Shown piece after piece: positions 3,001-36,277 of a stretch of 64,000 nt of DNA (its first letter is position 1; each line of letters begins with the position of its first letter). The stretch spans positions 27,581,501-27,645,500 of the forward strand of contig NC_091661.1 in the NCBI RefSeq assembly GCF_042453785.1, written 5' to 3'. Source of the stretch: Malus domestica (taxonomy: Eukaryota; Streptophyta; Magnoliopsida; Rosales; Rosaceae). The position numbers and the translations under genes were made by a program. The notes beneath the pieces are model-generated. The model was not told the DNA's origin. It searched no databases and saw nothing but the letters and a program-made list of their open reading frames with translations.

Positions 3001-3518
3001 GCACCTGCATTTAAAATATAGTGGATTACGCTTTTGTCACCTCCGATTTTCTTACTATCAAACTTCACAGAATAAGAAAGTTAATTTACCTTCCTATAAG
3101 CACACATTTTCTTGTATGGAACAAGCATTTCACTCGCCTGCCACTCCATTTCCTTTCGATAGGCAGCTACTACGTCCTCTCGTACTCGCGAAATAGGAAT
3201 CAGACTTCCCACTACAATCACAACAAGAACAAGAATTTCTAAACATAATAGAAAATGAAAAATGTTCAAGACATGAGATTCAATTGTTTCGCGACACATG
3301 AACTCGAAGAAGCAAAGCTTACTTGGTGTTGGAACTCCGGTGATCCTTTCCCGGACATGAATCAACTTGAAGAAAACATTTCCCTCCGGAACAAACTTAT
3401 CCAGAGCCCACCTAACTATGTATTTGCTATTTCTGTCCCCACTGACAGCAATGCCAACAATTGAAAGAGAAGAAGGTTGAATATTTTCACCTCCTTCAGT
3501 AATTTCACTCCCATCCAT
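1..3518 (-). CDS. U-box E3 ligase / receptor-like cytoplasmic kinase with N-terminal USP domain
   Basis: Nine exons, read on the minus strand: 3323-3518, 3090-3211, 2883-3004, 2351-2586, 2002-2246, 1709-1810, 1188-1613, 350-1099 and 1-183. They join in frame to 793 codons, with the stop at bases 1-3, so the 3' end is complete. A universal-stress-protein (adenine-nucleotide-binding) region covers about residues 1-147 and is followed by a Ser-rich linker. A charged coiled-coil spans about 345-425. A protein kinase domain follows, with the AVK lysine near 467, the HRDLKPAN loop near 562 and DVG in place of DFG near 581. The C-terminal U-box (about 721-790) contains the DVMNEPCVAADGYTYDR stretch. 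Plant PUB proteins of this USP-kinase-U-box class ubiquitinate partners and probably phosphorylate them. The target here is unknown. The closest Arabidopsis relatives, from memory, are At5g61550/At5g61560. Catalytic residues look intact. Confidence 0.93.
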
Positions 3519-4367
3519 CTATCTGACTCTCCTCTGTGGAACTGGAAATCCTCTGTACCATGTAGAAACAAAGCACAATAGCACAACCAAATAAATCAGC
3601 ATTTCCAACACAACAAATTAGCAAATTGAAATAATGCTCAAACTACCAAAAAAATAAAAAATAAAAAATCTGAAAGAAAACGAGGGTGCGGAAATCACTA
3701 GGGGTGTGCAAAGAAAGAAAACAAGTGTGCGGAAATCACTTTCTGCTTCCCATATAAATATAAAATTCCACGAAGTGGCACTCAAAAGTTCAAAAGAACA
3801 ACAAAAACTCAAAACCCCAGAAAAGTAATGCACAGAAAACAAAAAAAAAACATACCAGCTGCTCAAGCTTCAAGACTCATCAGACTTGAAGCACTTGCTC
3901 AACTCCTCATGAGAAAAGAACAAAAACCCATCAATATATCTCTCTGGAAAAACACGTTGACATTCAAAAACACGTTGACATTCAACCACCATTTGCAAAA
4001 ATGGAAATTTGGAATAAGTTATAGCTGGTCAGAAGCAGATGACTTGAGAAATGCAACCCCACCAAGGTATGTTTGATTCTGGTACGACTTTTAAGTTTCT
4101 GTTTGTTTTCAACGCAACGTAAAACTTGTTTTTGTATTTATAATTGTAATAATCTATATTACTGCTTCGCGGAAGCGTTTGAAAATCCACCGCCTTTGGA
4201 CTCTTACCTAAAAGGCTTAGGATAAGAGCAAATTCGATGCTCCGGGGCGGAAACCACCATGAATTTTCTCCTATTTATCTGCCAATTAATTAGTAATTAG
4301 GCACTATCAGAAGTCACGAGGGGATAGAGACCTTCGCATGCTAAAATATTACAACCGCAATTTCCCC
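3519..4367 (-). promoter_or_regulatory. 5' UTR with probable leader intron, and promoter of the U-box kinase gene
   Basis: Upstream of the ATG, a plausible acceptor (TTCCAG on the minus strand near 3544) and donor (CTG/GTATG near 3854) suggest a leader intron of about 310 bases, which is common in this family. The rest is AT-rich upstream sequence without a recognisable gene. A direct repeat containing aaaaacacgttgacattca lies at 3948-3980. No TATA box could be assigned with confidence. Confidence 0.4.
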
Positions 4368-4396
4368 ATATATATATACACACACACACACACACA
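4368..4396. repeat. (TA)n(CA)n microsatellite
   Basis: An alternating ta run passes directly into a ca run of about nine units. It is a simple sequence repeat and likely to be length-polymorphic. Confidence 0.95.
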
Positions 4397-4493
4397 TCAT
4401 ATATTATATTAGCAGCTGGTACAGAGAACTTAACTAGTTGTTTCTTAGAATCTGGACGAAATTTCTTAGCATGTATGTATATTTATAATAGCA

Positions 4494-4675
4494 GAGATGA
4501 GATCTTCTGCACTCAAATACCCTTGTGGCCTCTCTGTGCCTTTGGTTTTTGAACTAAACATAATTAATGTTAACTTGATCATAATTAAAATAATAAATAA
4601 TAAATCAAATCATCAGCCAATTAAGGAAGACACAGAGAGACCACAGGGGTATTTGGGTGCAGAAGATCTCATCTC
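4494..4675. ncRNA. Candidate hairpin precursor (miRNA-like or foldback element)
   Basis: Bases 4494-4542 are almost perfectly complementary to 4627-4675, with an AT-rich loop of about 84 bases. I count four differences across about 49 paired positions. Read as plus-strand RNA, two are G-U wobbles and two are C-A mismatches. The arm contains gatcttctgcac followed by caaataccc and ctctctgtg. It does not match a plant miRNA family I remember. A recently inserted foldback element would give the same picture. There is no sequence evidence for transcription. Confidence 0.3.
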
Positions 4676-5778
4676 ATAATAGCACTGAATCAGAATGCAT
4701 AATCTTAATTAGAATTTAAAACCATTCAATTAATCCCAGAGTGAGTGGTTTATATAAATTATATTCATCTTGCGTAAGTCATTGCCTTAGTGGTATGTTT
4801 ACTCGATTAGTTTCTGAAATATGAGTATTAAAACTATTATGATCCTGATTCTCTACGCATATGAAAAAGAAAAATTGTTGGTTTTACATTAAAATTTGGA
4901 CTTCAATATTTTGAATTAATTATTAATTTTCTGTGTATAAATTGTCCAAGACCATGACATGCTTTTTTCTAGTAACATAAAAGTTTAGAGGGAGGTTGGC
5001 TATTATCACTATTAGGGCATACCTACAACCTCAAGTCGTAAGAACTTACACGTGATACCTAATTGCCAATTGTCATTGGTATGAATTTACGTAATAATTT
5101 ACATAACGTGCACCAACAAGAATCGATGGCGGGGTTCGACCTTGGATTAAAGATTAACCACATACACGTCCTTACCAACTGAACCAACTTTTGTTGGCCA
5201 AGGCCACGACATTACATATGAAAATATGATAGAAATAATCAAACATTTGCATAAGAATGATCCTTCAAAAAATCGAAGTCCAATGTATGTGGTAGCAAGG
5301 GAAACAAACATGACAAGAATTGGTCTATCAAAAAATCGAAGTCCAATGGGAGAAATATGAATTTTTTTTGTTTAATTTAGTTGGTCTATCATTTTTCCTT
5401 GCTTAATAAAGTATTTAGTTGGTGTCGACGACCAACAATTACCGTGGACTCGTCCAAGAGTACGACATTTGAAGCTTTTGACTTATTAGCTCAACCTTTT
5501 CCATGCATGTCGATTCAACACCAACTTTGATATAACCATTTTCTATTGCATTTTGTTGGTAGGTTGCTAGGTCGTCTTGTTTTCTTTGAGCCACACTGTG
5601 GACTTTTCTTAAAAAATAGAGCAGATGCTCACAAAAAGTATATGTAAACTTCTTGTCAAACATGATCAGAAGCGATTTTTTATTATTTGAAAGTGTTTTT
5701 GTCCATCACTACTACAAATTTGTTGCACCGTCAAGTTCACGTGAACCTTGGTTGTGTACACAGAGAAGATATATAGGC
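4676..5778. other. Intergenic, no supported gene
   Basis: AT-rich sequence in which I find no coding exon, RNA gene or clear transposon end. A short minus-strand open frame at 5439-5663 has no recognisable motif. The sequence up to 5778 is unique to this copy; the duplicated block starts at the next base. Confidence 0.6.
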
Positions 5779-8700
5779 AAATAATATTATCAATGTCTAC
5801 CAAATGTAACGCTCTAGAGAGCATAGCCATTGTTGTATCTCAGCTACAAATCTTTTGTAGCAATGATATCTGAGAGCTGATCATAGCGAACTAGCTAATC
5901 GATGACAGTTGAGGTGCCCGCCTGTTCCCCGGAAAGCAACTCCGTCAGCCTGACTAGCTAGTTCGCTGCTTGTTTGTCGCTGCACCGGGGACTGCTTGTT
6001 CTTGTACTCCCGTTGAGTCGAAAGCTTCTTCTTTGGAATGCAACTCTAGCATGTGGATTCCGCTCTTTAATAATTTGCGAGGACAAAGTTAGGATTCACC
6101 TTTGCGTTAGATTTTCCATTTCCAATATCGCTTGTATAAAATACACACTAATCAAAGTTCGGAAATGAAATTGTTGGATTTATTTTCTTGGAATTTATAT
6201 TTGGGTACCAAACTAGAAAATGGAAAATACAAAAAAAGTATGAATATGGTACATCATGGGCAAAGTTGTATCAAATTTCAGGACCGGAGGCAAACAAGCT
6301 AACAAGGCCTCGAAATACTTGCGCCGATAATTGGTGTGCTTGAAAGAGTTCCCCGTCCAAATTCCATACACTCTCGTTGCCGGAAGATGTGAACGTAAAA
6401 GCAGTGGTCTGTACCAAACATATGAACAAAAAATATTACAGTCGAGATTAATTTGACAACACGAGCGATGAAAACATGATGAATAAACATATATACCTTG
6501 TGGTGTTCAACAAACTTGAAATCGAAGGGGTTTCCGCCCTTCTTTGCAAGCTGGGTAAGATGCCTGCAAATTAATCATACATAAGAAACTTCTAGTATGA
6601 TCTTCATGGATAAAGCAGCAAAAAAGTATCGAATATGCCCGATAGTTGATGCCAAGAAAAGGTAAAATCTTCAGAATTTTGCATAAAAACCTCTGTAACA
6701 GATAATTCTTAAGGTGGTGAGAGGAATTATAGACAGATGGTTAAGAACTTGAAATCGAAACCTCCATAGAAGAACACTTCAGAAGACTAAACAAATAGAC
6801 GACTCTAGACTGCCATGTTACTAATGGGAGCCTTTCAAATGTATCATAAAAATCATTTGGCCGTCAAAAGACTGGTGCGGCTCCGAATGTGCCCATCCCA
6901 ACAATTTGAAACTCGAAATATTTTTCTAGCTTAAATTTGGGAACCGATATCAGTAATTATCCAATTCTCAAGGGGAGAAGGAAGGAATGTGCATTTAGAT
7001 GGGGGCAATAAATTATTACCATAGATAGAGAGCATGAGAGCAGTCTTTGATCAATATGAGATGCATGAAACCGTCTGAAAGGTGTGCATCGGCCACCAAA
7101 CCATCAGGTGCTCTTTCATTTCTATTGGAAATTACTGCGGCACCAATGCTAAGAAACTTTCCCTTTGATATGGACCATTTTGTTTCTCCTGGATATGAGC
7201 AAGGGGTGGTGCTGCTACAGACCTTGCAGTTAACACGGCATATTGCTTGATCGGATTTATTTGGGCTCCAAAATGGTCGCTTGTGATCGCTCAAACTTCC
7301 TCTTTCAGGAATTGACTTTCCTTCTGGTTTGACTTCTATATATGCTACTTCTGCCTCATAGGACCTGAATGATACAACATATATAAAGATAGATGGTTCA
7401 ATGTTGTTAATTGAAATAAAAGATAATTTGTTGTTAGTCACAATCATATAAAGCTAATGAAGAGAATCTACACGGTGAAAGTATATTGGGAAACAAATAC
7501 ACAGAGACCATATGAATGATTTAAGACCCAACATTCATGATTTTGGGACTCACATAGCAAAATATGAAATCAACTAGTAAATTACCGGTGCTTTAAAAAT
7601 ACCCTTGTTCCTGCATAATCATATCTTTTCGGACCCATCCAACTGTATTTTTCACTCTCAGTAATGACATCTCCATAAAATCCATACCTACAAAAAATAG
7701 AACATCTGGAATTTTAGAGAACTTAAAATGAGAATCAAATATCTGATTTTCCAGACCAGAGCATCATCCATATCATTGACTAATTGTAATGAGAAACTAC
7801 CCGGCAAAAGATGCTGCATAGCGCACAAAAGGTTCAACCTTTGATGTAGATGTTGTTTTCCACCTTACAACTTGGGCTACATCAAGGGAAACCCTTTTCC
7901 CAAGGACAATGTGAAATGTAGATGTTATAGGATCTCGAGCACCAGTTGTGCTGACAAAATGAAAAAAAAGTGAACACCTTACATTGGGCCAAAGGGACCA
8001 ATACCAGATGAAATAAAGGTAGAAAGATACTGAGATATGTTATTATGTCCAATAGACACACTGAATATTAATGGGTTTTGTGAAATGTGCATAGTGAATT
8101 CATATATGATAAACGATAAGAGATATACTTAAATAAACCCATGACAACAAACAGGAAGAGACCTAAAGAAGTTTCACATTCTGATTAGGCACTTCAAGTT
8201 CAAGATTTCTGATGCAACACTGAAAAAAGTGGATTCAACAAACTCCTACAAGATCTAGGACCAAGAATCATACTGGAACAGGATCGAGAGCAGCAATCTA
8301 TTAACATTTCTAATATCCATCACTACTCAGCAGAGGTTTACTATCATAAACACTAATTTCAAGAAAGATCCTTGGCATTTTGTAAGTTGGTGAACTATAT
8401 TACAATTTAAACGATCTAAATACCACATTATGTATGTAAACTACAGTCAAACGGTTAATTATGTTCAATTCAAATTAAGTATCAATTTGGACATGTGGGT
8501 AATGCAAGTCTAGACCCAATAAGGCAGAAAATTTTGAATGCTGGCTGAGAAGTGTAGAGAAGTACCACATCACAATGGCATCGGTAGAGCCAGCAGGAAT
8601 AATTCCAAATCTGAAATGCTCATTGGGGAAGGGAAACTCTGGATCTTCATCTGCTGGGTTTTTGAAAAGAGAAAAAACAGTAATCATGTTTTAGGCATTA

Positions 8701-10557
8701 GAAAATACAAGTACAAATACTATATACTATTATATCATGTTTGTACAACAGAACCAATCAGCCGATGGGGGAAGAAATATCCTCAATTCTTGTAGTGTTA
8801 GATACATCCAGTGATATGTACGAAAACAACCAGTTACAACTAAAAATCAAAGCTGATGTGTATGGAAAATATTATTATGATACATACTGATAACAGGGGC
8901 TCCCGAACCATCGTGGATTGGACTTGGGAGGAGAGGAGACTGCTCAATGTTCTGAGAAGAAGTTCCAATAACTGTTTCATTTGGATCATGAACACAGAAA
9001 CTGTCATGACATGTATCAGAAGGAAGAAAACCTGAAGGAGTTGGCGGGTATGGAGCTTTATGCCTTGAAGAAAGAAATCCATTGAGGATTTCATTGAAGA
9101 AACCATCACCGCCCTAGTTCCAAATCAATTATTACCAAGTAATCAACAATTAGGAATAGAATAAGTTCAAAATCCTAAGAAGTAATACAATATAGCATCA
9201 ACTGAAGAAGTATGCCAGTATAGATGTTCCTTTTACAAAGATTGAAATAAGTCTAGGAAAGTTATAACTTACAACGGCTATAACTCCGTCATATGAAGCA
9301 AGCACTTTGTTACCTATAGATGCCATCATATCATATGCATGCCCTGACCTTTGGGTCACAATGACCTGATGTTGGAATTGAAAACAAAATTTAAGAAGGA
9401 TCACGTTGTACATTCAATAGGTTTGCTTGTAGTCTTGATTCCCATTACAGGAGTAAATGAACAAGCTAGAACTCTACCTTTGTTTTCACTTTAGCATGGG
9501 AGAATATAGGAGCCACCGAGTCCCAAATTTTGCAGCCGTTTCCCTTCCCACTCTTTGGATGAACAAAAACCTAGTCAATCAGAAAAAGATTCCGGAAAAA
9601 TATAATACCACTTTATGCCAATTTTGATAAACCACCTAAAGGACTCAAAAACCCAAACAAGCATAATGATAAAGCGATTGGCAAACTACAAAACATACCA
9701 ACAGATTCTTTGGTCGCCCCTGTTCTAGGGCCAGAGAAGCATTAATCTGATCGACCCACATCTGACATGTTTGGAGATCATTATGACCAAATGTGTATGC
9801 AGCCAGGGCCCAAAGAGAAGGCAGAGTCTTTGACTGCTGGAAACCATGCACTGTAAAGCGGTAAACCTGAACCTATGTAAACACCAACGACATCAATAAA
9901 TACCATATGAGGGAGTGAAACAAAATAGCCAAGAATGGGAATTGAACAAACCTCAGATTCATGACGATCCGAAAGGCATCTTCTATCATTTGAAACCTTT
10001 GGTACATGGATCAAACCGTGGCTGATCAACTCAACGGAATACACATCGGAAAATTTGATCTCGGTTGCAACCTTTGAAGTAAAAATTTCAAAATTTCATG
10101 ATTAAACGGTATAATCAACTCATCGATTAACGATCATAAATGCTTCACCGAATAATAATACAGGATCCCGAGTAAATAAATTAACAAAGTAAAATGTTCA
10201 CAAAGCTCAGGCAAGCTCAGGCAAAAGTGATGAAAAATCAGAAATTTAGAAGAACCCAGTTGCCATTAGGCCTAATAAGCAGCAGTAATCCCAGAATCCA
10301 TACTAAAATTCAAAAGTATCACAAGTGTAGCACAATTAAGAACAAATCTCAATCTAGAGTTGATAAAAATAGAAATTTTACTATCAAATAAATCAATTTG
10401 AAGACAAAAACAAAAGGGAAAGAAGAGGAGAGAAATTAAATACATTTTCCAATGGCTCGAGCGATTTCCAAGACAACCCATCTGAGTTTAAGGAGAGAAG
10501 GACTTCCCCGACGCGGTCCAAGGTGAGGCTGCGGCTCAAAGCCGCCGCCGTGGCTCC
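5779..10557. repeat. Segmental duplication, copy 1
   Basis: This block matches 16648-21488 almost base for base, including introns and the 3' flank. It starts at gcaaataatattatc and ends inside the GC-rich first coding exon of ceramide kinase. Scattered substitutions and small indels separate the copies, so they are distinct loci and not an assembly echo. Copy 1 lacks about 47 bases present in copy 2 around 20967-21013. Confidence 0.95.
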
Positions 10558-10656
10558 ACCGTGGCTCCGCAGTTGCTGAGGTTTTTGAGGCCTGTTTGCA
10601 CTGCAAAAGTTCAAGGTGGTGAAGTTGTTCGGCTTTTGGGGTGCATAAGGCATCAT
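6271..10656 (-). pseudogene. Ceramide kinase copy 1, with lost native start and exon-2 acceptor (possibly still translatable)
   Basis: Exons 3-12 lie at 9699-9872, 9478-9570, 9273-9365, 8888-9113, 8566-8650, 7801-7950, 7586-7687, 7020-7364, 6497-6563 and 6271-6408. Each has exactly the length of its counterpart in copy 2, and no stop was seen. The GGDGFFNE active-site motif and the CxxxCxxC motif are kept. Two lesions are visible. First, similarity to copy 2 stops inside exon 1 near 10557, so the original start and about 25 codons are missing; an in-frame ATG at 10656 in unrelated sequence could replace them. Second, a deletion of about 47 bases removed the exon-2 acceptor and 13 codons, but a cryptic acceptor (TTCAAAG, exon from 10071) restores the frame. 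Together these would give 601 aa. Whether the gene works is unknown. Confidence 0.75.
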
Positions 10657-10735
10657 AATTTGGTGCCTCTTTTGGGATTTTATGCAGGGCCGAGAGGTGA
10701 TGATTCTAATTTCTCTTTCCTTGTTTGATCAGTTT
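10558..10735 (+). pseudogene. Receptor-kinase domain fragment
   Basis: Directly at the broken 5' edge of ceramide kinase copy 1, the plus strand encodes GGEVVRLLGCIRHHNLVPLL and continues GFYAGPRGDDS before a stop. This is the typical helix-C to beta-4 segment of plant receptor-like kinases (RHHNLVPLLG). Nothing else of a kinase gene is recognisable here. The fragment is antisense to the novel N-terminal frame of ceramide kinase copy 1. Confidence 0.55.
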
Positions 10736-10914
10736 GTATTTTTGTTCTGTTTGGTTGCCGAGAAAATCCCCAAGAATATGAAAAGAAAGAAACTTGATTC
10801 GCCTTTTTTGTTTGGTTTATGAGGATTTTGTGTTTTGCCATTGTGTTTCAAAAGAATTGTAAAAACCTGTTCTGTTTTTCGAGTCTGGATTGCTTCTGCT
10901 TTCTACTATTCTGG
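10736..10914. other. Intergenic spacer between RLK fragment and LINE tail
   Basis: T-rich sequence with no gene. It contains a stretch near 10750 (gtttggttgccgagaaaa) that resembles one near 44290 (gtttggttgccgagaaat), apparently a shared low-copy motif. Confidence 0.4.
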
Positions 10915-11078
10915 TTTTTTTTTTTGGTAAAAAGGAAATTCATTCAAAGCCAAACAGCCACCAGATACAACCGAAAGTCAGAAGCATCTGACCAACAAAA
11001 AACCAAGCAAGAAGGGGAAAAACAAAAGACGCAGCCAAACAAAGCTAACACGTCTTCCACATCCCGCAAACAGCCCAA

Positions 11079-11767
11079 ACTAAGAATAGAGATGATACTT
11101 CTAACCGTTAAATTCGATGATAATCGTGGATAACCGTCCGAATGGATTGGATTTAGGTATGAAAATTCGGGTATATTTTGGGTATGGGAAAAAACCGTGA
11201 ATATTATTCGGTTATGGTTTTGGATATGATTATAGAGGTCCCTAATCCATATCCGTACCCGAATCCGAACCGAATACTATATAATATAATTATATGTATA
11301 TATATGTATTTCATTATTCACCGAATCCGTTATCTTGAGAATACAAAAATTGCATTGTGTGAGTTTTATTTTGTGGCAAAGTTCAAAAGTTTTGATATGA
11401 ATCAAAATCTATGAGAATTTAATAGTATTCATGCGAGATATCAAAGATCAACCAACATTATCAATGTTTAGCTTTAATTTTTATGTTCCACAAGATCCAT
11501 TAATCAAATTATTTTATACATCAAATATTTAATGATGAAATTAATATTTACTAAATTATCATGCGTCAATTGGGCGAATATATTTTTTGTATTAATGAAG
11601 ATGGATATAACCGTTAACCGATGAGAAATCCGTTATCCGGTGGGTATGGTTATGGATAATACCCGATGATTAATTTACGGTTATGGATATGGTTAATTTT
11701 CATGGGTATGGGGATGGATATAGCATTTCCGTCCCCAAACCGATCTGTTGCCATCCCTAACTAAAAA
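11079..11767. mobile_element. hAT-type MITE with 8-bp target duplication
   Basis: The element is 11087-11759 and is inserted in the LINE 3' region. Its ends are tagagatg on the left and catcccta on the right, i.e. TAGRGATG inverted termini. The flanks are actaagaa (11079-11086) and actaaaaa (11760-11767), an 8-base target duplication with one change, as expected of hAT transposases. The interior is AT-rich with repeated ggttatggatatgg and gggtatgg motifs at both ends and no transposase frame. Confidence 0.75.
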
Positions 11768-11828
11768 TGAGGACATGGTAATCCGTCTTTGTTCAAAATT
11801 CTCACCAACGAAGATGGGGCCTGTCGAC

Positions 11829-12182
11829 CTAGACGTAATTGCTCATCTCCGCTCCACGACATCTAGCGACAAAGTTCGCCGCTTCATTCCCAGATCTTGA
11901 CACCCATGACCAAACGCAATTGAGAAATAAACCCCCCAATGGCCGTATGCGGCTCAGAATGGGGTATATCTCCCAACTGCAATTTTCAACATCACCATTT
12001 AAATAAGAAATGATTTGCTTACAATCAGATTCAACCATTATATGAGAATAGTTGCTTTGTTGAGCCAAACAACACCCTTCCAACACCGCCAAAGCTTCGG
12101 CAACAACTGCATCGGGGGCCTGCACTTCCTTTCTTCTTATTTTTAAATATCTATTCCTCGAATCTCTCATCACAACACCCAT
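11829..12182 (-). pseudogene. LINE RNase H domain
   Basis: The frame encodes an RNase H domain of the reverse-transcriptase-associated type: GVVMRDSRNRYL, then AVVAEALAVLEG, then VESDCKQIISYLNG. Flanking sequence continues the LINE open frame on both sides. The upstream KINVDASWKGG segment of the same domain lies beyond the solo LTR at about 14220-14260, so the LTR split this domain. Confidence 0.85.
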
Positions 12183-12639
12183 ATAGCTATTTGAAACCCT
12201 GATAGGAGCATATTTATGCGACTGAGTTAGCTTGTTCTCATGTATTTATGTTGTTATTTCTTAGTTAATTATGTATTTTAAGCTATTTTCGTGTGTTTGT
12301 AGGTCCATAGGCCTTATATAGCAATAAGGTGCATTTTGATGCATTTTGGAACAGTTTTGGGCTTGGAATGGTAGCACATGCATGGAGCAAGGTGGATGGA
12401 CGAAATTGAAGACTAAAGAGGCTTGGAATGTGTTAAAAAGAAAGAAGAATTAAGGACAAAGAGCTTAGTAACCAAAGAAGAAACACGAGTCAAGATTACC
12501 TTGATTTAATCTTTCCTAATCCTCAATGTCCCTAAGTTCCAACAACTTTCATTGTTTATTTCATTCACTCATTGCCTTGCACCACCCTTGTTCCCTCCAT
12601 CATTCCAAATTTCTTGCATCAATCATCACTCCATCTTAA

Positions 12640-12895
12640 CCCTTGACTCATTTCAACACTACTCTATTTTACCCCCCATGCTTTTCATCATTACTTCACT
12701 TTCACCTTTGAATCATTTCAACACCACTCCATTTTACCCATGTTTTGCATCATTACTTCACTTTCACTTTCACCTTTGCATCATTACTTCACTTTCATCT
12801 TTGAATCATTTCAACACCACTCCATTTTACCCATGCTTTGCATCATTACTTCACCTTCACTTTCACCTTTGAATCATTTCAACACCACTCCATGT
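12640..12895 (+). repeat. Tandem repeats inside the solo LTR
   Basis: Units of roughly 50-75 bases containing catttcaacaccactcc and catcattacttcac recur four to five times with variable spacing. The short His/Pro/Phe-rich open frames across them are a by-product of the repeats. Confidence 0.8.
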
Positions 12896-12920
12896 CCCCC
12901 TCCATTGCCTTGCACTTCCT

Positions 12921-12930
12921 CTATAAAAGG
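12921..12930 (+). promoter_or_regulatory. Putative TATA box of the solo LTR
   Basis: The sequence ctataaaagg lies about 720 bases into the LTR in a T/C-rich context, matching the plant TATA consensus. It implies plus-strand transcription of the former element. Confidence 0.5.
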
Positions 12931-14285
12931 AAGTGTGTGTAACATAAATTTAGTTGATATATTTTTAGATCATTCACTCCCATTTCAACACAACCTTCAT
13001 CCAAACACATCCATTCCTCCATACAACCAAACCTTCAAACACTCACCAACACCTTGTGCCGTAGCAAAGGAAGGAAAGGAAAGTGCTTGGACGTGCGTGC
13101 TGTCAACTTGGATCGTTTGAGCATTTAGGTGTTTTCCTTCTTTTGTTTCCAATGTTTAAATTCATTTTCTAATTTTGTTGCAATTATGAGTGGCTAAACC
13201 CTTATTTAGTTAGGGGGAAGTTTGAAGCCATGAACATGCTTGAGATATGAATTGATTTCTTCCAATTGTGATTTGATAAGTTGTGATTGCAATTCAATTA
13301 TCTATTTTATTCATAACTGATTCTTGTATGTTTATTAAGGATGCATACTTAGTTTTCATGCATGAATTAGATGCTAGAATATAAATGAGTTTCACCTAAA
13401 CGTTACAAGTTTATATTCATGAGTAGTGAAGGTTGTTTATCACAATCGCGTTAATTGAATTCTTGGCAAATGTATCATGCATTCATAGTTATAATTGCCT
13501 CGTCAACACTTATGATTTTCATTGCACATAATGATATCTGATTGTATCTCTATTATGCATTCATATAGGGGACTTTTAGAGAATGATTTGGGTTGTTGCA
13601 TGCATTCATCCAACTCAATGAGTAAAGGAAAATCTGAGGGTTAATTTGTGCATCACGGTTAATCTGGGGTGTTGAGCATCATAGTTTATTGGATAGCAAT
13701 TGGAAATCGATTCATGTACAATTGTGTCATGTGTGAAGAACGGACCTCTAACTAATCCATCCTTCATTTTATTTCTCAAATTCATTTTATAATTTGCCTA
13801 GTTTTATAACTTGCTTGTTTATTTCAAATTCATCCAAACCAAAATCCCCCTTTTACTTTCTTGTTTCAAAGTGTTAAATTTATGTTTTGTTTGTGTTTTT
13901 GACTGTTTTGATTCAAGCCAAAACACTAAATTCGTCCAAAGTTGTTTTAGAGTCCAAATCTGCCCAATTTGTGTTTTTAGGCATTTTTGAGTGTTTTTAA
14001 GTTGTTTTGAATCTTTAGAATCTGTTTTGAGTCCCTTGAGTCTATTCAAACATTTTTAGTTTTGTTTTTATGTTTTTGAGTCAGTTTAGAGGTTTTAGCA
14101 AGCCCTCATAATCCCCGGTTTAGAACGATCCCTACTTGCATTTATACTACAATTTGACAACAAGAGGGTTTAATTTGAGTGCTTAACTTTCATCGCATCA
14201 CCCCCCCCTCCCCCTCCCCCCTTCCAACTCGCATCAACATTAATTTTCACCATTTAGGAGGGGGTGGAGACCAAAAACCATCTTG

Positions 14286-16544
14286 CTAAACCAAAGGTCT
14301 AGCATCTTGATGGATTGTGTTTCCTTCCTTCGCCTTCAAGAACATAGCATAAGCACATTGGATTGCCTGAATAGTTTGCATAGGAGAAGGAGGTTTAAAG
14401 TTGAAAATAGACTTACATCGAGTCTTCCGTATATGCCAACACGTGAAGGCCAACAGGGTTTGAATTCTCTCCCTCTCCGCTTTATCCCCAAAATTCTCCT
14501 TAAACATTTTACAAAGCCAATCATCAAAATTAGTAATAGAATTCTTATCAACCTTATAATTCAAGGGGCCACCAAACCATACCAAATCAACCAAGGACAA
14601 AAAAATAATAGATGTTTAATAGACTCCTCACACTCATTGCAAATAGTGCAATGGGGAGACAAAACACACCTTCGCTTGAAAAAGGCTCAGCTGCGTAGCA
14701 ATAGCCCCCTTGATTCATCTCGATAAAAAATTACGAATTTTTGGAGGGGCATCCAACCTCCAAATCCCTTTCCACACCACCTGATCAACAAGCCTTGAAG
14801 AGGAAGGTCTCGAGTTTCGTCTTTTATCCTTGTTATTCCGAAGCTATTTGTAACCAGATTTAACAATGTAAATCCTCTTACTATCTACCGACCATATCAA
14901 CCTATCATCCCTCCTGGAATCACCCACTTGTATGTTAGAAATTGCCTTGAAGTCCTGATCAGAAATCAAATTGCGAATTGGCTCCAAATCCCATCTCTGG
15001 TCAACCGGGTGAATAACAGAAGCAACAAGCGTTTCGCTATCCACCTCAACTCCATTAAGAGGAATTGGGTGGCCACAATGAATATTCGGAACCCATTTAT
15101 CAACCCAAAATTTAATTTGATTACCACTCATAACTTGCCATTGCATACCCTTTAACAACTCCCTTCCCTCGATCAAGCTAGACCATATCCATGAGGCACG
15201 CCCACCCTTCTTGGCTTCCAAAAATGAGACATGAGGAAAGTATCGATCCTTTAAAACCTGGGCCCACAAAGAATTCGGATCATGAATTAATCTCCAACAT
15301 TGCTTGACTAGAAGAGCAATGTTAAACTCTTTCAAATTCCTGAATCTCATTTCTCCCTTGGATTTTGAATACCCCATAGCTTCCCAACTAACCCAGTGAA
15401 TTCTCCTCTCATCTTCTCTTTGACCCCACCAAAATCTTGCAAGAGCAGCATCAATCTCATTACATAAGGAATCAGGAAATTTAAATATGTTCATTGGGTA
15501 AGCAGGCACTGCTTGAGCAACCGCCTTAATCAACACTTCCCGTCCAGCCTGAGAAAGGAATTGTTGCTTCCACCCTTGTATGTTCCGAAGAACACGATCA
15601 TTTACATAGGCCAAAGCCTCTTTTTTTGAACTTCCCCAATCTGTCAAGATTCCCAGATATTTCCCTGGGTCCTCCACTTGTGGCATATTCAGAATGCCAC
15701 AAAGTTCTTGACGAACCACAACTGGAGTATTAGCACTAAAATAAACAACTGACTTTTGCAAACTAATATCCTGATCGGAAGCTTAACATTAGGCATTGAG
15801 AAGATTCACAATATTCTGATAGTTGCTTCTTGTGGCTTTCATGAAAATCAGAGTGTCATCAGCGAATAGAAGATGAGAAAGGCATGGTCCATTAGCACTA
15901 ATCCGGATTCCCTCCACAAATCCCATATCAGTAGCATATCGAATTAGACGAGACAACACCTCACTAACAATAAGAAATAAATATGGTGAAAGTGGGTCAC
16001 CTTGCCTCAAACCCCTTGTCGGCTTAAATCTCCTTCCCGAATGGCCATTGATCAAAACTGAAAACTCCACCGTGGTAACACAATTCATCACCAAATTCAC
16101 CCAATTCCTATCAAAACCCATCTTCACCATGACAGCCTCAAGAAAATCCCATTCCACCCGGTCATACGCCTTATTCATATCAAGTTTTATTCCCGGATCA
16201 TACTTTAGTTTCGCCTTTCTGAGTTTAAGAAAATGGAAAACTTCATGGGCAATGATGATGTTGTCTTGAATCTGTCTTCCTTCAACAAAAGCATTTTGAC
16301 ATGGAGAAATAATATTATAAAGCAGGGGTTTTAGTTGATTTGTTAATATCTTCGAGAGCACTTTATAGGAATAATTACACAAACTTATTGGTCGAAAATG
16401 GCTCACCGATTCGGGATTTGGTATCTTCTGAATTAAGACAATATTAGTGGAATTTAACTTTTGCAAACTTGTTCCCCCATTGAGAAATTCTGTCACATCC
16501 CGGACCCAATCCACATGACAAGATATTGTCTGCTTTGGGCCCAA
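14286..16544 (-). pseudogene. LINE reverse transcriptase and C-terminal region, disrupted
   Basis: The minus strand encodes typical non-LTR RT blocks: SHFRPISLCNYSYKVLSKIL, QNAFVEGRQIQDN, GLRQGDPLSPYLFLIVSEVL and the catalytic LLFADDTLIF. The frame then breaks with a stop near 15786. It resumes (15761 down to 14844) with WKQQFLSQAGREVLIKAVAQ and FWWGQREDERRIHWVSW, and continues with a zinc-binding and C-terminal part at 14286-14600. The catalytic aspartates (ADD) are present but the frame is broken, so no functional protein is expected. Confidence 0.9.
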
Positions 16545-16645
16545 CCCGCAAGGATTTGTTCTTGGGTTTCGGCACGAGAACTTCCCACGGAGTCACCCAT
16601 CCTAGGAATGCTCTCACCCAAACTCATTTAACTTCAGAGTTCTTA
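16491..16645 (-). mobile_element. Partial Cassandra-type TRIM LTR carrying a 5S rRNA-derived segment
   Basis: Read on the minus strand, the sequence goes from agaactctgaagttaaatg through ctaggatgggtgac and gggaagttctcgtg, which is the body of a plant 5S rRNA gene including its internal promoter region. It then ends with cccaaagcagacaatatc and cgggatgtgaca. A 5S region followed by this tail is the hallmark of Cassandra LTRs. Only the 3' part of the LTR is present. It sits exactly between the truncated LINE and the start of duplication copy 2. Confidence 0.8.
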
Positions 16646-16647
16646 TG

Positions 16648-19600
16648 GGCAAATAATATTATCAATGTCTACCAAATGTAACGCTCTAGAGAGCATAGCC
16701 ATTGTTGTATCTCAGCTACAAATCTTTTGTAGCAACGATATCTGAGAGCTGATCATAGCAAACTAGCTAATCGATGACCGTTGAGGTGCCCGCCTGTTCC
16801 CTGGAAAGCAACTCCGTCAACCTGATTAGCTAGTTCGCTGCTTGTTTGTAGCTGCACTGGGGACTGCTTGTTCTTGTACTCCCGTTGAGTCGAAAGCTTC
16901 TTCTTTGGAATGCAACTCTAGCCTGTGGATTCCGCTCTTTAATAATTTGCGAGGACAAAGTTAGGATTCACTTTTGCGTTAGATTTCCCTTTTCTAATAT
17001 CGCTCGTATAAAATACACACTAATCAAAGTTCGGAAATGAAATTGTTGGATTTATTTTCTTGAAATTTATATTTGGGTACCAAACTAGAAAATGGAAAAT
17101 ACAAAAAAAGTACGAATAAGGTACATCATGGGCAAAGTTGTATCAAATTTCAGGACCGGAGGCAAACAAGCAAACAAGGCCTCGAAATACTTGCGCCGAT
17201 AATTGGTGTGCTTGAAAGAGTTCCCCGTCCAAATTCCATACACTCTCGTTGCCGGAAGACGTGAACGTAAAAGCAGTGGTCTGTACCAAACATATGAACA
17301 AAAAAATATTACAGTCGAAATTAATTTGACAACACGAGCGATGAAAACATGATGAATAAACAATATATACCTTGTGATGTTCAACAAACTTGAAGTCGAA
17401 GGGGTTTCCACCCTTCTTTGCAAGCTGGGTAAGATGCCTGCAAATTAATCATACATAAGAAAATTTTTACTGTGATCTTCGTGGATAAAGAAGTGAAAAA
17501 GTATCGACATATGCACGATAATTGATGCCAAGAAAAGGTAAAATCTTCAGAATTTTGCATAAAAACCTCTGTAACATATAATTCTTAAGGTGGTGAGAGG
17601 AATTATAGACAGATGGTTAAGAACTTGGAATCGAAACCTCCATAGAAGAACACTTCAAAAGACTAAACAAATAGACGACTCTACACTGCTATGTTACTAA
17701 TGGGAGCCTTTCAAATGTATCATAAAAATCATTTGGCCGTCAAAAGATTGGTGCAGCTTCGAATGTGCCCATCCCAACAATTTGAAACCCGAAATATTTT
17801 TCTAGCTTAAATGTGGGAACCAATATCAGTTATTATCCAATTCTCAAGGGGAGAATGAAGGAATGTGCATTTAGATGGGGGCTATAAATTATTACCATAG
17901 ATAGAGAGCATGAGAGCAGTCCTTGATCAATATGAGATGCATGAAACCGTCTGAAAGGTGTGCATCCGCCACCAAACCGTCAGGTGCTCTTTCATTTCTA
18001 TTGGAAATTACTGCGGCACCAATGCTAAGAAACTTTCCCTTTGATATGGACCATTTTGTTTCTCCTGGATATGAGCAAGGGGTGGTGCTGCTACAGACCT
18101 TGCAGTTAACACGGCATATTGCTTGATCGGATTTATTTGGGCTCCAAAATGGTCGCTTGCGACCGCTCAAACTTCCTCTTTCAGGAATTGACTTTCCTTC
18201 TGGTTTGACTTCTATATATGCTACTTCTGCCTCATAGGACCTGAATGATACGACATATAAAAGATAGATGGTTCAATGTTGTTAATTAAAATAAAAGATA
18301 ATTTCTTGTTAGTCACAATCATAGAAAGCTAATGAAGAGAATCTACACGGCGAAAGTATATTGGGAAACAAATACACAGAGACCATATGAATGATTTAAG
18401 ACCCAACATTTGTGATTTTGGGACTCACATAGCAAAATATGAAATCCAACTAGTAAATTACCGGTGCTTTAAAAATACCCTTGTTCCTGCATAATCATAT
18501 CTTTTCGGACCCATCCAACGGTATTTTTCACTCTCAGTAATGACATCTCCATAAAATCCGTACCTACAAAATATAGAACATCTGGAATTTTAGAGAACTT
18601 AAAATGAGAATCAAATATCTGATTTTCCAGACCTGAGCATCATCCATATCATTGAGTAATTGTAATGAGAAACTACCCGGCAAAAGATGCTGCATAGCGC
18701 ACAAAAGGTTCAACCTTTGATGTAGATGTTGTTTTCCACCTTACAACTTGGGCTACATCAAGGGAAACCCTTTTCCCAAGGACAATGTGAAATGTAGATG
18801 TTATAGGATCTCGAGCACCAGTTGTGCTGACAAAATGAAAAAAAAAAAAGTCAACACCTTACATTGGGCCAAAGGGAACAATACCAGATGAAATAAAGGT
18901 TGAATGATACTGAGATATGTTATTATGTCCAATAGACACATTGAATATTAACGGTTTTTGTGAAATGTGCATAGTGAATTCATATATGATAAACGATAAG
19001 AGATATACTTAATTACACCCCATGACAACAAACAGGAAGAGACCTAAAGAAGTTTCAACTTTTGATTAGGCACTTCAAGTTCAAGCTTTCTGATGCAACA
19101 TTGAAAAAAGTGGATTCAACAAACTCCTACAAGATCTAGGACCAAGAATCATACTGGAACAGGATTGAGAGCAGCAATCTATTAACATTTCTAATATCCA
19201 TCACTACTCAGCAGAGGTTCACTATCATAAACACTGATTTCAAGAAAGATTCCTTGGCATTTTGTAAGTTGGTGAACTATATTGCAATTTAAACGATCTA
19301 AATACCACATTATATATGTAAACTACAGTCGAACGGTTAATTATGTTCAATTCAAATTAAGTATCAATTTGGAGAACATTGTGAGTAATGCAAGTGTAGA
19401 CCCAATAAGGCAGAAAAAATTGAATGCTGGCTGAGAAGTGTAGAGAAGTACCACATCACAATGGCATCGGTAGAGCCAGCAGGAATAATTCCAAATCTGA
19501 AATGCTCATTGGGGAAGGGAAACTCTGGATCTTCATCTGTTGGGTTTTCGAAAAGAGAAACAGTAATCATGTTTTAGGCATTTGAAAATACAAATACAAA

Positions 19601-21488
19601 TACTATATATTATTATATTATGTTTGTACAACAGAACCAATCAGCCGATGGGGAAAGAAATATCCTCAATTCTTGTAGTGTTAGATACATCCAGTGATAT
19701 GTACGAAAACAACCAGTTACAACTAGAAATCAAATCAAAGCTGATGTGTATGGAAAATATTATTATGATACATACTGATAACTGGGTCTCCCGAACCATC
19801 ATGGATTGGACTTGGGAGGAGAGGAGACTGCTCAATGTTCTGAGAAGAAGTTCCAATAACTGTTTCATTTGGATCATGAACACAGAAACTGTCATGACAT
19901 GTATCAGAAGGAAGAAAACCTGAAGGAGTTGGCGGGTATGGAGCTTTATGCCTTGAAGAAAGAAATCCATTGAGGATTTCATTGAAGAAACCATCACCGC
20001 CCTAGTTCCACATCAATCATTACCAAGTAATCAACAATTAGGAATAGAATAAGTTCAAAATCCTAAAAAGGAATACAATATAGCATCAACTGAAGAAGTA
20101 TGCCAGTATAGATGTTCCTTTTACAAAGATTGAAATAAGTCTAGGAAAGTTATAACTTACAATGGCTATAACTCCGTCATATGAAGCAAGCTCTTTGTTA
20201 CCTATAGATGCCATCATATCATATGCGTGCCCTGACCTTTGGGTCACAATGACCTGATGTTGGAATTGAAAACCAAATTTAAGAAGGATCACTTTGTACA
20301 TTCAATAGGTTTGCTTGTGGTCTTGATTCCCATTACAGAGTAACTGAACAAGCTAGAACTCTACCTTTGTTTTCACTTTAGCATGGGTGAATATAGGAGC
20401 CACCGAGTCCCAAATTTTGCAGCCGTTTCCCTTCCCACTCTTTGGATGAACAAAAACCTAGTCAATCAGAAAAAGATTCTGGAAAAATATAATACCACTT
20501 TATGTCAATTTTGATAAACCACCTAAAGGACTCAAAAACCCAAACAAGCATAATGATATAGCAATTGGCAAACTACAAAACATACCAATAGATTCTTTGG
20601 TCGCCCCTGTTCTAGGGCCAGAGAAGCATTAATCTGATCGACCCACATCTGACATGTTTGGAGATCATTATGACCAAACGTATATTTAGCCAGGACCCGA
20701 AGAGAAGGCAGAGTCTTTGACTGCTGGAAACCATGCACTGTAAAGCGGTAAACCTGAACCTATGTAAACGCCAACGACATCAATACCATATGAGGGAGTG
20801 AAACAAAATAGCCAAGAATGGGAATTGAACAAACCTCAGATTCATGATGACCAGAAAGGCATCTTCTAGCATTAGAAACCTTTGGTACATGGATCAAACC
20901 GTGGCTGATCAACTCAACGGAATACACATCGGAAAATTTGATCTCGGTTGCAACCTTTGAAGTAAATGTGATGCCCAAACAAGTTGAGTCATCCTGATAT
21001 ATTAGACAGTAATAAAAATTTCAAAATTTCATGATTAAACATTATAATCAACTCATCGATTAACGATCATAAATGCTCCACCGAAAAATCATACAGGATC
21101 CCGAGTAAATAAATTAACAAAGTAAAATGTTTGTCACAAAGCTCAGGCAAAAGTGATGAAAAATCAGAATTTAGAAGAACCCAGTTGCCATTAGGCCTAA
21201 TAAGCAGCAGAAATCCCAGAATCCATACTAAAATTTGAAAGTATCACAACTATAACACAATTAAGAACAAATTTCAATCTAGAGTTGATAAAAATAGAAA
21301 CTTTACTATCAAATAAATCAATTTAAAGACAAAAACAAAAGGGAAAGAAGAGGAGAGAAATTAAATACATTTTCCAATGGCTCGAGCGATTTCCAAGACA
21401 ACCCATCTGAGTTTAAGAAGAGAAGGACTTCCCCGACGCGGTCCAAGGTGAGGCTGCAGCTCAAAGCCGCCGCCGTGGCTCCGCCGTC
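16648..21488. repeat. Segmental duplication, copy 2
   Basis: Counterpart of 5779-10557. It contains an intact ceramide kinase gene with its start codon and upstream region, so it more likely keeps the ancestral arrangement. Similarity to copy 1 ends in the first exon, where copy 2 continues into its own N-terminus and copy 1 into a receptor-kinase fragment. Confidence 0.95.
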
Positions 21489-21554
21489 AAACTGCGCGTG
21501 CGGGAGAGGGGGAGATTCATCTGGTTCAATACAGCAATCTACATCACGTTCCAT
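17143..21554 (-). CDS. CERK: Ceramide kinase (ACD5-type), complete
   Basis: Twelve exons: 21369-21554, 20835-20993, 20586-20759, 20365-20457, 20161-20253, 19776-20001, 19452-19536, 18677-18826, 18462-18563, 17896-18240, 17371-17437 and 17143-17280. They join in frame to 605 aa, close to the Arabidopsis enzyme ACD5 (about 608 aa, from memory). The diacylglycerol-kinase-type catalytic region starts near residue 174 (VFVHPKSGKGNG) and holds GGDGFFNE at about 236-243. The ceramide-kinase-specific CxxxCxxC motif is Cys465/469/472. The enzyme phosphorylates ceramide to ceramide-1-phosphate. In plants its loss lets ceramide accumulate and triggers spontaneous cell death. The start MERDVDCCIEPD was chosen because it is the first in-frame ATG before the conserved exon. 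Confidence 0.93.
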
Positions 21555-22667
21555 TCAACGAGGTTTGAATTATATGAAGGATAATGTTGAAGGCGGCGAA
21601 AACGGAAGAACTTTCAGGTGGAATTTCAAAAAACCGGTGATCGCGTTCGTTGGCCGAAGTGGAATTTGGCGCTTTTATTGACCACAAAAGGAAACAAAAC
21701 GACAGGAAAACGGGCCGTTGCAACCAGAGATCTAGGCTTCTAGCATGTTTGCTTTTCTCTGGTTATTTTCTTATTACCCTTTGACCATGGTCATTGTTTG
21801 TTGGTCAGTGCATGAAGCCAAATCCAACCAGTAAAATCTGGTAAAAATTATATTTATAATTAAATTATAAGTTTGTTGGTCAGTGCATTGCGCTTATCTT
21901 TGTATTCAAGCTTCAATATTTCTTCTCATATATTAGATTGGTCCAAAATACCACATTGTAAAACAAATTTGCAAATTAAATTGTCCAAATATTTCTTTAT
22001 TTTTTTTCAAAAGTAAAATTCTTTTTTTTAGAAAACATAACATGATAAAACATCAAACAAAAAAGGATCTATGCGCTACCTAAATTACAATCAATTGGAG
22101 TATATTAAATTGCGAGTTGAATTAGAGGAGTTTAAAAGTCTTTTTACTCAAAATGGTCATCAGATTGGTATAACTTTTCACTTTGGTTCTTGAGATTTCA
22201 AATCGTAGAAATGGTCATTGAGTTGGTCCACTGTCAATAATTTGGTCAAACTTATAATCAGTTCTATCGATTTCAAATCTTAAGGACCAAAGTGAGGAGT
22301 TATGTCAATCTTGAAAATTATTTTAGCTCAATGCCGAGTTTAAAATACTCCTCCTCTGCCAGTTAGTACTACAGTTTAGTGATATTCATTTTTACTTATA
22401 AGTTTAGTGGTATTCCTCTTTACTTGTAAGTGAGAAGTCTTAGGTTCGATTATTGCCACATGGAAATTTGAACCACATTATTGCTAACCCATTGTGAGGC
22501 GTAACCTACTATCCCACATCTTAGTGTAGATAATATCGTTTGCTAAAAAAAAAAAACCCTACTCTAATTAACTGCAACAGCATGTTGTTTTCATGCTCTA
22601 ATGTAACAGATTTCGTAGACAATAGAACGGTGCAATAACAGGACTCTTGTTGACAAGCGGAGCCTTG
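21555..22667. other. Ceramide kinase upstream region and gene-free AT-rich spacer
   Basis: The first 150 bases or so are the 5' leader and promoter of ceramide kinase copy 2 on the minus strand. The remainder is AT-rich. Near 22430-22545 lies a stretch (taggttcgattattgcc to the A-run at 22543) resembling short dispersed elements common in apple. No gene was found. Confidence 0.5.
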
Positions 22668-23471
22668 TCACGGTAGCACGGTATAAACCGTCACATCGTC
22701 CATGTCCAGGCTTCTCACTGAGTACTGAAATGTCCATCCGTGGCAAGCTCCGGCGTGCACGCCCTTCTTATTGATGGCAAAAACAGCTCCAACAAAACCA
22801 GGGAATTTTCTCGTGATTGTGATATCGCATCCTTCGCAGCGAGTTTAGGTTCCATCCCTAATCTCATACTCTCCACAACTTGATAACTGTGGTTCAATCA
22901 TTTAATAGATTCAGTATAGGAGCATATTGGGGACTAAATACACAGGGCATGACAGAAAACAAAGCCTGCTTGACGCACACGCAATGCATTCTTTACCGGA
23001 GTTGCAAAATGATGGATCGGATTGTTACGTTCAAAACTCAAGCCACCAGGCCGGAAGGAAACCAGTTTTTAATGCTTGACAAGCCTCCAACTGGTATAGT
23101 TTGATTAATGACAGTATTTGCTTTACATTTAAGACAAACTGTACTTCTTGATTAAGGCTTTAAGAAGGCAAGTCAATAGCAACATTCATAACTTCATCGT
23201 CGCCCAAAAGGAAAACTTCAAAAGTGGTAAACTGTTGATATTGTTGGAGCAAAAGCGAATTTCAAATACGAAGATTTGTAATTGTTGACTGAAATTAGCA
23301 TCCCATAGCAATATACTCTACAAGAGAAGAACGTAAGACCAGGAGCAAAGATGACCAGTGCATTACCATGGAAAGAAAGGCATCGTGACATCACCATCTC
23401 CGGATGCACCACAAGCACCAACTTCGTCATCTGCATATGCAGATGATCCTGCAATGCGTCCATAACCCACC
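22668..23471 (-). pseudogene. 3' fragment of an isoaspartyl peptidase / L-asparaginase-type (Ntn hydrolase) gene
   Basis: Two exons remain. Exon 23367-23471 encodes [20 protein letters not shown] and then [15 protein letters not shown]. Exon 22668-22886 encodes YQVVESMRLGMEPKLAAKDA and later GVHAGACHGWTFQYSV, ending in VYTVLP and a stop. The junction is in phase (TG/T makes the cysteine). A frameshift near 22820 puts the two halves of the last exon in different frames. The upstream exons with the autocatalytic Thr nucleophile are absent before the MYB gene. From memory the best relative is At5g61540 (probable isoaspartyl peptidase/L-asparaginase 3). No function is expected. Confidence 0.85.
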
Positions 23472-24079
23472 CTGCAGTCAAGAAACTGTGCTTTCACTCA
23501 TGCACTCATGCAATCATGCACTCGGAGTTCTGTATTAGACTCCCCTTCGTGCCAACCCGAGTAATCGCATGTATCATAATCTTGATCACATCCAACGGTG
23601 ATCCATGATATTGCAAATCATACCAGAGGACATATACGTAATTTTATCATCTATTTTGAACAAGCAAGGAAACGGCGGGGGTGTGGGGTGCTTACCACTA
23701 ACCGCCATAACCGTCTTTACGTGGTAGTGGGATAAGATTTCCACTGTTTTTCATACACAATTTAGATGATCAATTAGAAACGTGAACACCGTAATCAGGC
23801 CCTTCATTTTTCATCATCTTTGATCCTTAATGGTCCCACAATCTAAGTACTTGATTCAACGGCTAGCTTTAATTCACCAGTTACGTTTCCATAAGATGCG
23901 CCGTGTGCATGCAAACCCTAACATGATCGAGATTTAAAAAAAAAAAAAAAAAAAAAACTCATACCTCAAAAGTTCATATTCCATCATCTCATTTTTTCCA
24001 AGAAACCCAATTAATTTACGGAAGAAGATTTTGTTTCCCGTCGGAGTGAAGAAAATTGAGAGATTAATTTTGTTGAAAA
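23472..24079 (+). promoter_or_regulatory. Upstream region of the DUO1-type MYB gene
   Basis: About 600 bases without coding sequence between the asparaginase relic and the MYB ATG. Contents include an A-run of about 21 bases at 23937-23957 and the probable leader just before the ATG. No TATA box could be fixed. The region is the likely promoter, which for DUO1 genes is active in the male germline. Confidence 0.4.
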
Positions 24080-25215
24080 ATGGCGAGGCAAAAGCAAAAC
24101 GATGGAGCATACATCAGGAAAGGGCCATGGACTGCTGAGGAAGATGAGGTGCTCATAAGTCATGTGAAGAGAAATGGTCCTAGAGACTGGAGCTCCATTC
24201 GATCCAAAGGACTCTTGCCGCGAACTGGAAAATCATGCCGGCTCAGATGGGTTAATAAGCTCCGACCGAACTTGAAGACGTAAGTAAGCCCTACGAATCC
24301 TTGGAATATTATATAGATATCAAACACTAATTAGTTTTTGTAAGTTTAGTTGACGAGTGTTCATTAATTTGTTATGTTCACGTTTTTGTTGATTATTGCT
24401 GGGTTTTTGGCAATTTAGTAGTTGTAATCTGTATTTTCTTGCTTAAGATTGACGCTAACAAAAAATGTGAACTTGAACAACAAAGTGGATGCAAGTTTTC
24501 TGGAGAGGAGGAGAGGATGGTGATACAACTGCAAGCGCAATTCGGGAACAAGTGGGCGAAAATTGCGACGTATCTGCAAGGCAGAACGGACAATGATGTA
24601 AAGAATTTCTGGAGCGCTCGGCGAAAGAGGTTTGAGAGGATTCTGCAGAAATCGACATCCTCAAACTCCCAAAAAAACAAGGGGAAGAGCCTTGTGCATC
24701 ATGAATTTCCAGTGGATAAGGTAAGGTAGCATTGTTCTCAAATTTCCAAGACAAATTTTTTCAAATTAACAATTGTGAATTCTCAGGTTTCTTCTCATCC
24801 AAGCAATTGCTTTTTGAATTCTGAAGAGTTGGGAATGGTGGATCTACCGGATTTGGTGAAAGCGAACCAACTGCTGAATGTGGAAGCAGAGCAGCAGCCC
24901 ATGCTTGAGGCCACGCCGATTAATATGATCCCGTCTTCTGATTTCCCACCACACTTATCTTTGTCTCAGCTTCCTCAGCCCCAACTAGACCTCTCATTTT
25001 TATCAGGATGCAAAGAAATTGACCAGGACCCTATCGTTCTGAACTTGCTGGACGTGTTCGGGCAGGATATCCCACCTCTTGGACTGGAGGAGAATGTTCA
25101 AGGTAATAAGTTAGGAGAGCTTAAAGACCTTTCGACCCCTGACATTTTCTTCGATGAATTCCCACCTGAGATGCTTGATTATCTCGAAACTCTTACAAGC
25201 TCGTCAGAGTTATGA
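24080..25215 (+). CDS. DUO1: R2R3-MYB transcription factor, DUO POLLEN 1 (DUO1/MYB125) type
   Basis: Three exons (24080-24279, 24486-24720, 24787-25215) join in frame to 287 aa. The R2 repeat spans about residues 12-63 (KGPWTAEEDEVLISHVKRNG, PRDWSSIRSKGLL) and R3 about 66-115 (FGNKWAKIATYLQGRTDNDV, KNFW). The tryptophan spacing is typical of plant MYBs. The acidic C-terminus ends PEMLDYLETLTSSSEL, like the activation region of DUO1. DUO1 switches on sperm-cell genes in the male germline of flowering plants and is needed for generative cell division. The exon structure and miR159-like site also fit DUO1. Its neighbours are unrelated in function; from memory the Arabidopsis gene (At3g60460) lies elsewhere. 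Confidence 0.88.
24188..24208 (+). promoter_or_regulatory. miR159-like target site within the MYB R2 coding region
   Basis: The 21 bases from tggagctcc to gatccaaa match the complement of miR159 with about three differences, one of them a G-U wobble. They encode WSSIRSK of R2. Arabidopsis DUO1 is an established miR159 target, which supports post-transcriptional control here. Confidence 0.8.
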
Positions 25216-29968: not shown

Positions 29969-29973
29969 AGTTT

Positions 29974-36272: not shown

Positions 36273-36277
36273 AGTTT

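Follow-up and report, generated by a model that had tools for sequence, protein, structure and literature searches.

The stretch analysed here, referred to as the window, comprises 64,000 nucleotides of the Malus domestica genome (RefSeq assembly GCF_042453785.1, contig NC_091661.1, positions 27,581,501 to 27,645,500) and carries two copies of a ceramide kinase gene, designated copy 1 and copy 2 according to their order along the forward strand; all positions below are those of the window. When the window was compared with itself by BLASTN, the two copies were found to lie in a direct repeat, in the same orientation (4864 alignment columns, 95.1% identity including gaps, 18 gap openings), which is the top-scoring repeat of the window with 7693 bits, the runner-up having 1281. 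Both copies occur on the minus strand, so that copy 2 is located upstream and copy 1 downstream. The location of the duplicated segments and of their features is shown in Table 1. A first reading made from the letters alone (hereafter the sequence-only reading) had already described two duplicated blocks, and the direct duplication was recovered by this self-comparison.

Copy 2 is complete. The raw prediction had 14 exons, of which the last two were removed by hand, with exon 12 being lengthened to the stop codon; the sequence-only reading had called this copy a normal gene, which agrees with its completeness and Pfam matches, and had given a product of 605 aa, to be replaced by the 603 aa of the present model. 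The product matches DAGK_cat (PF00781, 1.1e-21, residues 170-268) and CERK_C (PF19280, 5.7e-17, 62.4 bits for a cut-off of 33.5), and a C-x3-C-x2-C motif can be read in the translation at residues 463-470 (C-RVN-C-KV-C). Such a CXXXCXXC motif has been described as conserved in all ceramide kinases (PMC3069040). A search of solved structures returned 11 matches, of which sphingosine kinase 1 chains were the best (7.4e-16). A PH domain was also sought with Pfam in the copy 2 protein and gave no match at E 0.001; plant versions of this domain may diverge too far for a Pfam match. Taken at the level of its predicted product, copy 2 most likely does the ceramide kinase work.

In copy 1, exons 3 to 12 have the same lengths as in copy 2 and no premature stop, as stated in the sequence-only reading; they also show AG/GT at the internal junctions and end at the stop shared with copy 2. 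The situation differs at the 5' end. The homology ends inside exon 1 at 10562 (corresponding to 21487 in copy 2), leaving copy 1 without promoter, native start and its initial 22-23 codons. In addition, a 50-bp gap relative to copy 2 spans the exon 2 acceptor together with the first 27 bases of that exon; what remains of exon 2 still has an in-frame AG at 10073-10072. Both losses reported earlier, of the start and of one acceptor, are confirmed, but the account of the start has to be amended because the sequence fused to the break supplies another in-frame ATG, at 10656. The spacer between the copies was compared with the promoter side of copy 2 (21470-30000) at E 0.01 in search of any leftover of the native promoter, and none was found. 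Loss of the native start together with splice damage, by which a duplicated pseudogene can be recognised, are both found in copy 1.

Table 1. Coordinates of the duplicated ceramide kinase segments, their exons and the intervening sequence.
Feature	Position in the window	Strand	Basis or remark
Duplicated segment, copy 1	5772..10562	-	BLASTN self-comparison
Duplicated segment, copy 2	16644..21487	-	BLASTN, 95.1% identity to 5772-10562
Copy 2 ceramide kinase gene, 12 exons, 603 aa	17143..21554	-	Gene model and Pfam DAGK_cat, CERK_C
Copy 2 exons 1-4	21554-21369, 20993-20835, 20753-20586, 20457-20365	-	Gene model
Copy 2 exons 5-8	20253-20161, 20001-19776, 19536-19452, 18826-18677	-	Gene model
Copy 2 exons 9-12	18563-18462, 18240-17896, 17437-17371, 17280-17143	-	Gene model
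Copy 1 truncated exon 1, 119/186 bases aligned	10444..10562	-	Alignment; 5' end broken, donor intact
Copy 1 exon 2 remnant, 132/159 bases	9952..10083	-	Alignment
Copy 1 exons 3-12, 488 codons	6271..9866	-	Lengths equal to copy 2, AG/GT internal junctions, no premature stop
Fused sequence giving an in-frame ATG (10656-10654) to copy 1 exon 1	10563..10656	-	Antisense to the receptor-kinase-like fragment
Spacer, 6.08 kb	10563..16643	.	Receptor-kinase-like fragment, RVT_3 piece, short tandem repeats, reverse transcriptase, weak 5S-like stretch
Leucine-rich-repeat receptor kinase-like fragment (plant) next to the copy 1 break	10564..10725	+	phmmer

The two copies diverge at 34 of the 1717 aligned exon sites (2.0%) and at 119 of the 3057 aligned non-coding sites (3.9%; 101/2557 in introns and 18/500 in the 3' flank), and hence cannot be regarded as near-identical, the term applied to them in the sequence-only reading. 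Indels add to this: 16 lie in non-coding sequence, and an additional gap extends into exon 2. The very recent origin that had been envisaged was rejected on the non-coding divergence. With plant substitution rates in common use, of some 6e-9 to 1.5e-8 per site and year, the duplication would be one to three million years old or so. Differences are spread along the whole repeat (4-14 per 250 aligned bases), the longest identical run being 209 bp. Gene conversion was considered as a cause of the low exon divergence and left aside, a run of this length being unremarkable at ca. 3% divergence according to a hand estimate. Overall, the arrangement most likely represents an ordinary tandem segmental duplication.

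Comparing the copies by dN/dS, as the sequence-only reading had suggested, was possible for 571 of the 603 codons, after exclusion of the 9 lost in copy 1 and of 23 that lie on the break or before it; the ranges given reflect the choice of transition weight. Over these codons, 17 silent and 17 replacement changes were counted (dN/dS 0.29-0.34), with 14 and 12, respectively, in the 488 codons of exons 3 to 12 (0.25-0.28), and the ratio falls to 0.19-0.22 from Met152 onward. The value for exons 1 to 3 (139 codons) is 0.45-0.53; these exons hold 9 of the 17 replacements, besides the start loss and the exon 2 damage. For all codons and for exons 3 to 12 alike, the ratio differs from 1 with P 0.002 or less. 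A more demanding reference is a dN/dS of ca. 0.5, the expectation if strict constraint acts on one copy and none on the other. Neutrality of copy 1 was further simulated at the non-coding rate, with the divergence halved between the copies and copy 2 held at a dN/dS of 0.05-0.3. Under these settings, 12 or fewer replacements in exons 3 to 12 were obtained with P 0.001-0.016. For a neutral copy 1 that bears half of the divergence, P is about 0.005 that these exons show no stop, frameshift or splice loss. These selection tests draw on common data and are not independent of one another. Given the low simulation P values for both the replacements and the undamaged exons, constraint probably acted on copy 1 during much of its existence. 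Of the continued selection evoked by the sequence-only reading, past constraint is thus likely in light of the simulation, which does not establish present-day function.

Among the replacements, the one at position 402, where copy 1 has Ser and copy 2 has Arg, deserves attention. In the structure alignment, the counterparts of copy 2 Arg402 and Arg408 in sphingosine kinase 1 are Arg185 and Arg191, Arg402 being aligned with residue 182 of chain 3vzc_A, to which an offset of +3 was applied that was counted by hand against Asn22, Thr54, Glu55 and Asp81 (PMC4466670). These two arginines help to bind the ADP beta-phosphate, and alanine mutants had substantially reduced activity (PMC4466670). When introduced alone, R402S brings CERK_C down from 63.5 to 60.6 bits, and E223V costs DAGK_cat 0.1 bits. 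The double change T195S + G447D raises both scores by 0.4 bits, and I233V + R448H raises DAGK_cat by 0.8 and CERK_C by 0.1 bits, so that copy 2 may be where some of the differences arose. Copy 1 retains both the GGDG loop and the conserved cysteine motif without change. As for the damaged N-terminal part, the PH domain of human CERK has been described as indispensable for activity (PMC3069040). Altogether, the Arg402-to-Ser change, the promoter loss and the acceptor loss argue against copy 1 encoding an active kinase now.

These data are best accounted for, with a probability that we place at about 0.6, by copy 1 being a once functional tandem duplicate that has been beheaded and is now a young pseudogene. 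The proposed scenario would start with a plant ceramide kinase gene undergoing an ordinary tandem duplication, after which copy 1 would have worked, fully or partly, as a kinase under purifying selection for much of its life. A break joined to transposon-rich sequence would then have removed its promoter and first exon, and a small deletion would have taken the exon 2 acceptor, leaving what is most likely, today, a young pseudogene with no active kinase product. A recent loss of function is compatible with the dN/dS values and with the simulation results.

Several observations nevertheless weigh against this scenario. The constraint on copy 1 could equally extend to the present day, and a full-length open frame could still be reached in two ways, by fusion or by read-through (see below). 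The catalytic domain is not degraded when judged by its profile, with a DAGK_cat score of 78.9 bits in copy 1 that is slightly above the 78.0 bits of copy 2 and tells against general decay; for CERK_C, the scores are 62.2 and 63.5 bits, respectively. Binomial tests against a ratio of 0.5 are not significant, either for all codons (P 0.09-0.17) or for exons 3 to 12 (P 0.06-0.11), and the P of 0.03-0.06 obtained from Met152 onward involves a cut that was picked after the data had been seen. In the simulation, a replacement/silent ratio as low as that observed was reached with P of only 0.013-0.057, and the P of the intact frame rises to 0.07 when a quarter of the divergence is assigned to copy 1. 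Homopolymer runs of at least 5 are more abundant in non-coding sequence (21 in 3100 bases) than in exons 3 to 12 (3 in 1466 bases), which softens the indel expectation and, with it, the intact-frame P; a rough hand estimate with run-type indels left out gives ca. 0.02. Finally, C/T differences have the T in copy 1 in 39 cases and in copy 2 in 56, with 18 and 14, respectively, in a CG context. With no overall T excess in copy 1, a clear decay sign of a long-methylated dead copy is not seen, and decay of the methylation type was set aside, the excess being slight and confined to the CG context.

In a first alternative, copy 1 would have been dead from the outset: the duplication would have begun inside exon 1, so that this copy never had a promoter, drifted neutrally and kept its frame by luck. 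The break coincides with the end of the homology, and no geometry is simpler for a tandem duplication. Neither the binomial tests, in which a dN/dS of 0.5 cannot be excluded either for all codons or for exons 3 to 12, nor the intact frame under the quarter-divergence setting speaks strongly against it. When half of the divergence is placed on copy 1, however, simulated neutrality accommodates poorly both the replacement count and the undamaged frame (see the P values above), and we regard this alternative as unlikely.

In a second alternative, transcription would start in the fused sequence and give a chimeric gene using the ATG at 10656, with the exon 1 donor after 10444 being spliced to the AG before 10071. 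The resulting frame of 599 aa, which has a new N-terminus and lacks the first 13 residues of exon 2, is open throughout with a single terminal stop. The cryptic acceptor scores 0.80, a value within those of the 11 acceptors in copy 2 (-1.07 to 4.88), all scores being derived from an approximate table. On the other hand, an in-frame ATG before any stop occurred in 21% of 5000 shuffles, two more ATGs lie within 300 nt upstream, and two other AGs outscore the cryptic acceptor (1.63 at 10353 and 0.91 at 10021). The shuffles and the higher-scoring AGs indicate that the open chimeric frame is permissive and is no evidence of its use. The product would also carry Ser in place of Arg402, and a chimeric gene is rather improbable.

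Just as improbable, in our estimation, is that copy 1 serves as an alternative 3' cassette in a composite gene, in which read-through from the copy 2 promoter would allow exon 2 (donor after 20835) to be spliced either to exon 3 of copy 2 or to that of copy 1 (acceptor before 9866). Copy 1 is suitably placed, downstream of copy 2 and on the same strand; since exons 3 to 12 are of equal lengths, splicing from copy 2 exon 2 to copy 1 exon 3 would stay in frame, and it is precisely exons 3 to 12 with their splice ends, and not exons 1 and 2, that are preserved in copy 1. A partial precedent is offered by PEP1 of Arabis alpina, in which two copies of exon 1 occur 6.3 kb apart and cDNAs splice both of them to the shared exons 2-7 (PMC3527215). 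Yet the cassette would require the 3' end of copy 2 to be skipped and an 11-kb intron to be removed across transposon debris, and in PEP1 it is exon 1 that is duplicated, whereas here the duplication covers nearly the whole gene, with one copy startless. Were it true, the cassette would yield a full-length kinase in which Ser402 replaces an ATP-binding Arg; such an isoform, weakened or acting as a decoy, could modulate the cell death that ceramide triggers.

The least credible alternative, an uncollapsed allele retained as an assembly artefact, is very unlikely in view of a left flank, spacer and right flank that share no similarity at E 0.01, of differences distributed along the whole length of the repeat, and of a copy 1 that is truncated instead of being a second whole locus.

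When compared to known systems, copy 2 resembles ACD5 of Arabidopsis and OsCERK of rice in having DAGK_cat, CERK_C and the C-x3-C-x2-C motif; copy 1 departs from plant ceramide kinases by the absence of a native start and by the Ser at 402. In rice, ceramide kinase is encoded by a single gene (PMC3069040). Copy 1 also resembles the tandem or proximal duplicate pseudogenes of plants, being intron-bearing, adjacent and truncated, and such pseudogenes are found in excess relative to functional loci (PMC7935947). It is unlike them in that exons 3 to 12 are undamaged and coding divergence is low. Among the matches listed by a literature search for a ceramide kinase pseudogene, none pointed to one by its title, and a single plant review, on poplar, was present; those listed for a tandem duplication of ceramide kinase concerned, by title, blood cancers and cancer treatment.

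The spacer between the copies has no similarity at E 0.01 to 21470-30000 or to 1-5790. The receptor-kinase-like exon fragment that follows the break beyond 10562 runs opposite to copy 1 and has its best match with PDB 5uv4_A (E 0.00067), six more matches having E 0.6-0.96. Further along, RVT_3 (2.5e-17) is detected at 11832-12245 on the minus strand, and a LINE-like element occupies 14847-16592 on the same strand, with RVT_1 (7.7e-30) at 15792-16592 and an adjoining open frame (14847-15782, minus strand) that has no Pfam match. A weak 5S rRNA-like stretch (16564-16656, minus strand; 25.1 bits for a gathering score of 38) lies across the left border of copy 2. A 5S gene at this border was discarded, no Rfam match reaching the gathering score within the window; the stretch is perhaps a piece of a 5S-derived retrotransposon, presumably of the type named Cassandra.

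Other elements were found on either side of the duplication. To the left, the frames at 308-3518 on the minus strand correspond to a kinase-like gene with Pkinase (9.1e-29) at 308-1123, while the frame at 3084-3518, on the same strand, resembles a universal-stress-type domain with no Pfam match; this is probably a U-box or stress-domain kinase. A kinase gene of this type is presumably a neighbour of ACD5 in Arabidopsis, in which case the ancestral 3' flank would be the one on the copy 1 side. A near-palindromic inverted repeat, perhaps a small foldback element, is located left of copy 1 at 4494-4675 (71% over 196 columns). To the right, a 257-bp direct repeat of 99.2% identity (29974-30230 and 36024-36280, 6 kb apart) possibly marks the ends of a young LTR element, and a tandem duplication of about 0.9 kb at 54006-55780 (90.5% identity) contains inner repeats of 219 bp at 95-96%. 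LRR-rich frames on the plus strand at 50131-52584 and 57741-58472 probably represent a gene for a receptor-like protein and another LRR piece, and a repeat at 93% (52574-52758 and 57583-57767) suggests a partial copy of the LRR gene.

Automatic annotation may label copy 1 as a second functional ceramide kinase, which the present evidence does not establish. Copy 1 looks like a tandem duplicate seen soon after the loss of its head, whose later exons still carry a likely mark of selection. The loss of ceramide kinase leads to spontaneous cell death, as in acd5 (PMC3069040). If copy 1 were still used, it would represent a natural ceramide kinase with an altered ATP site.

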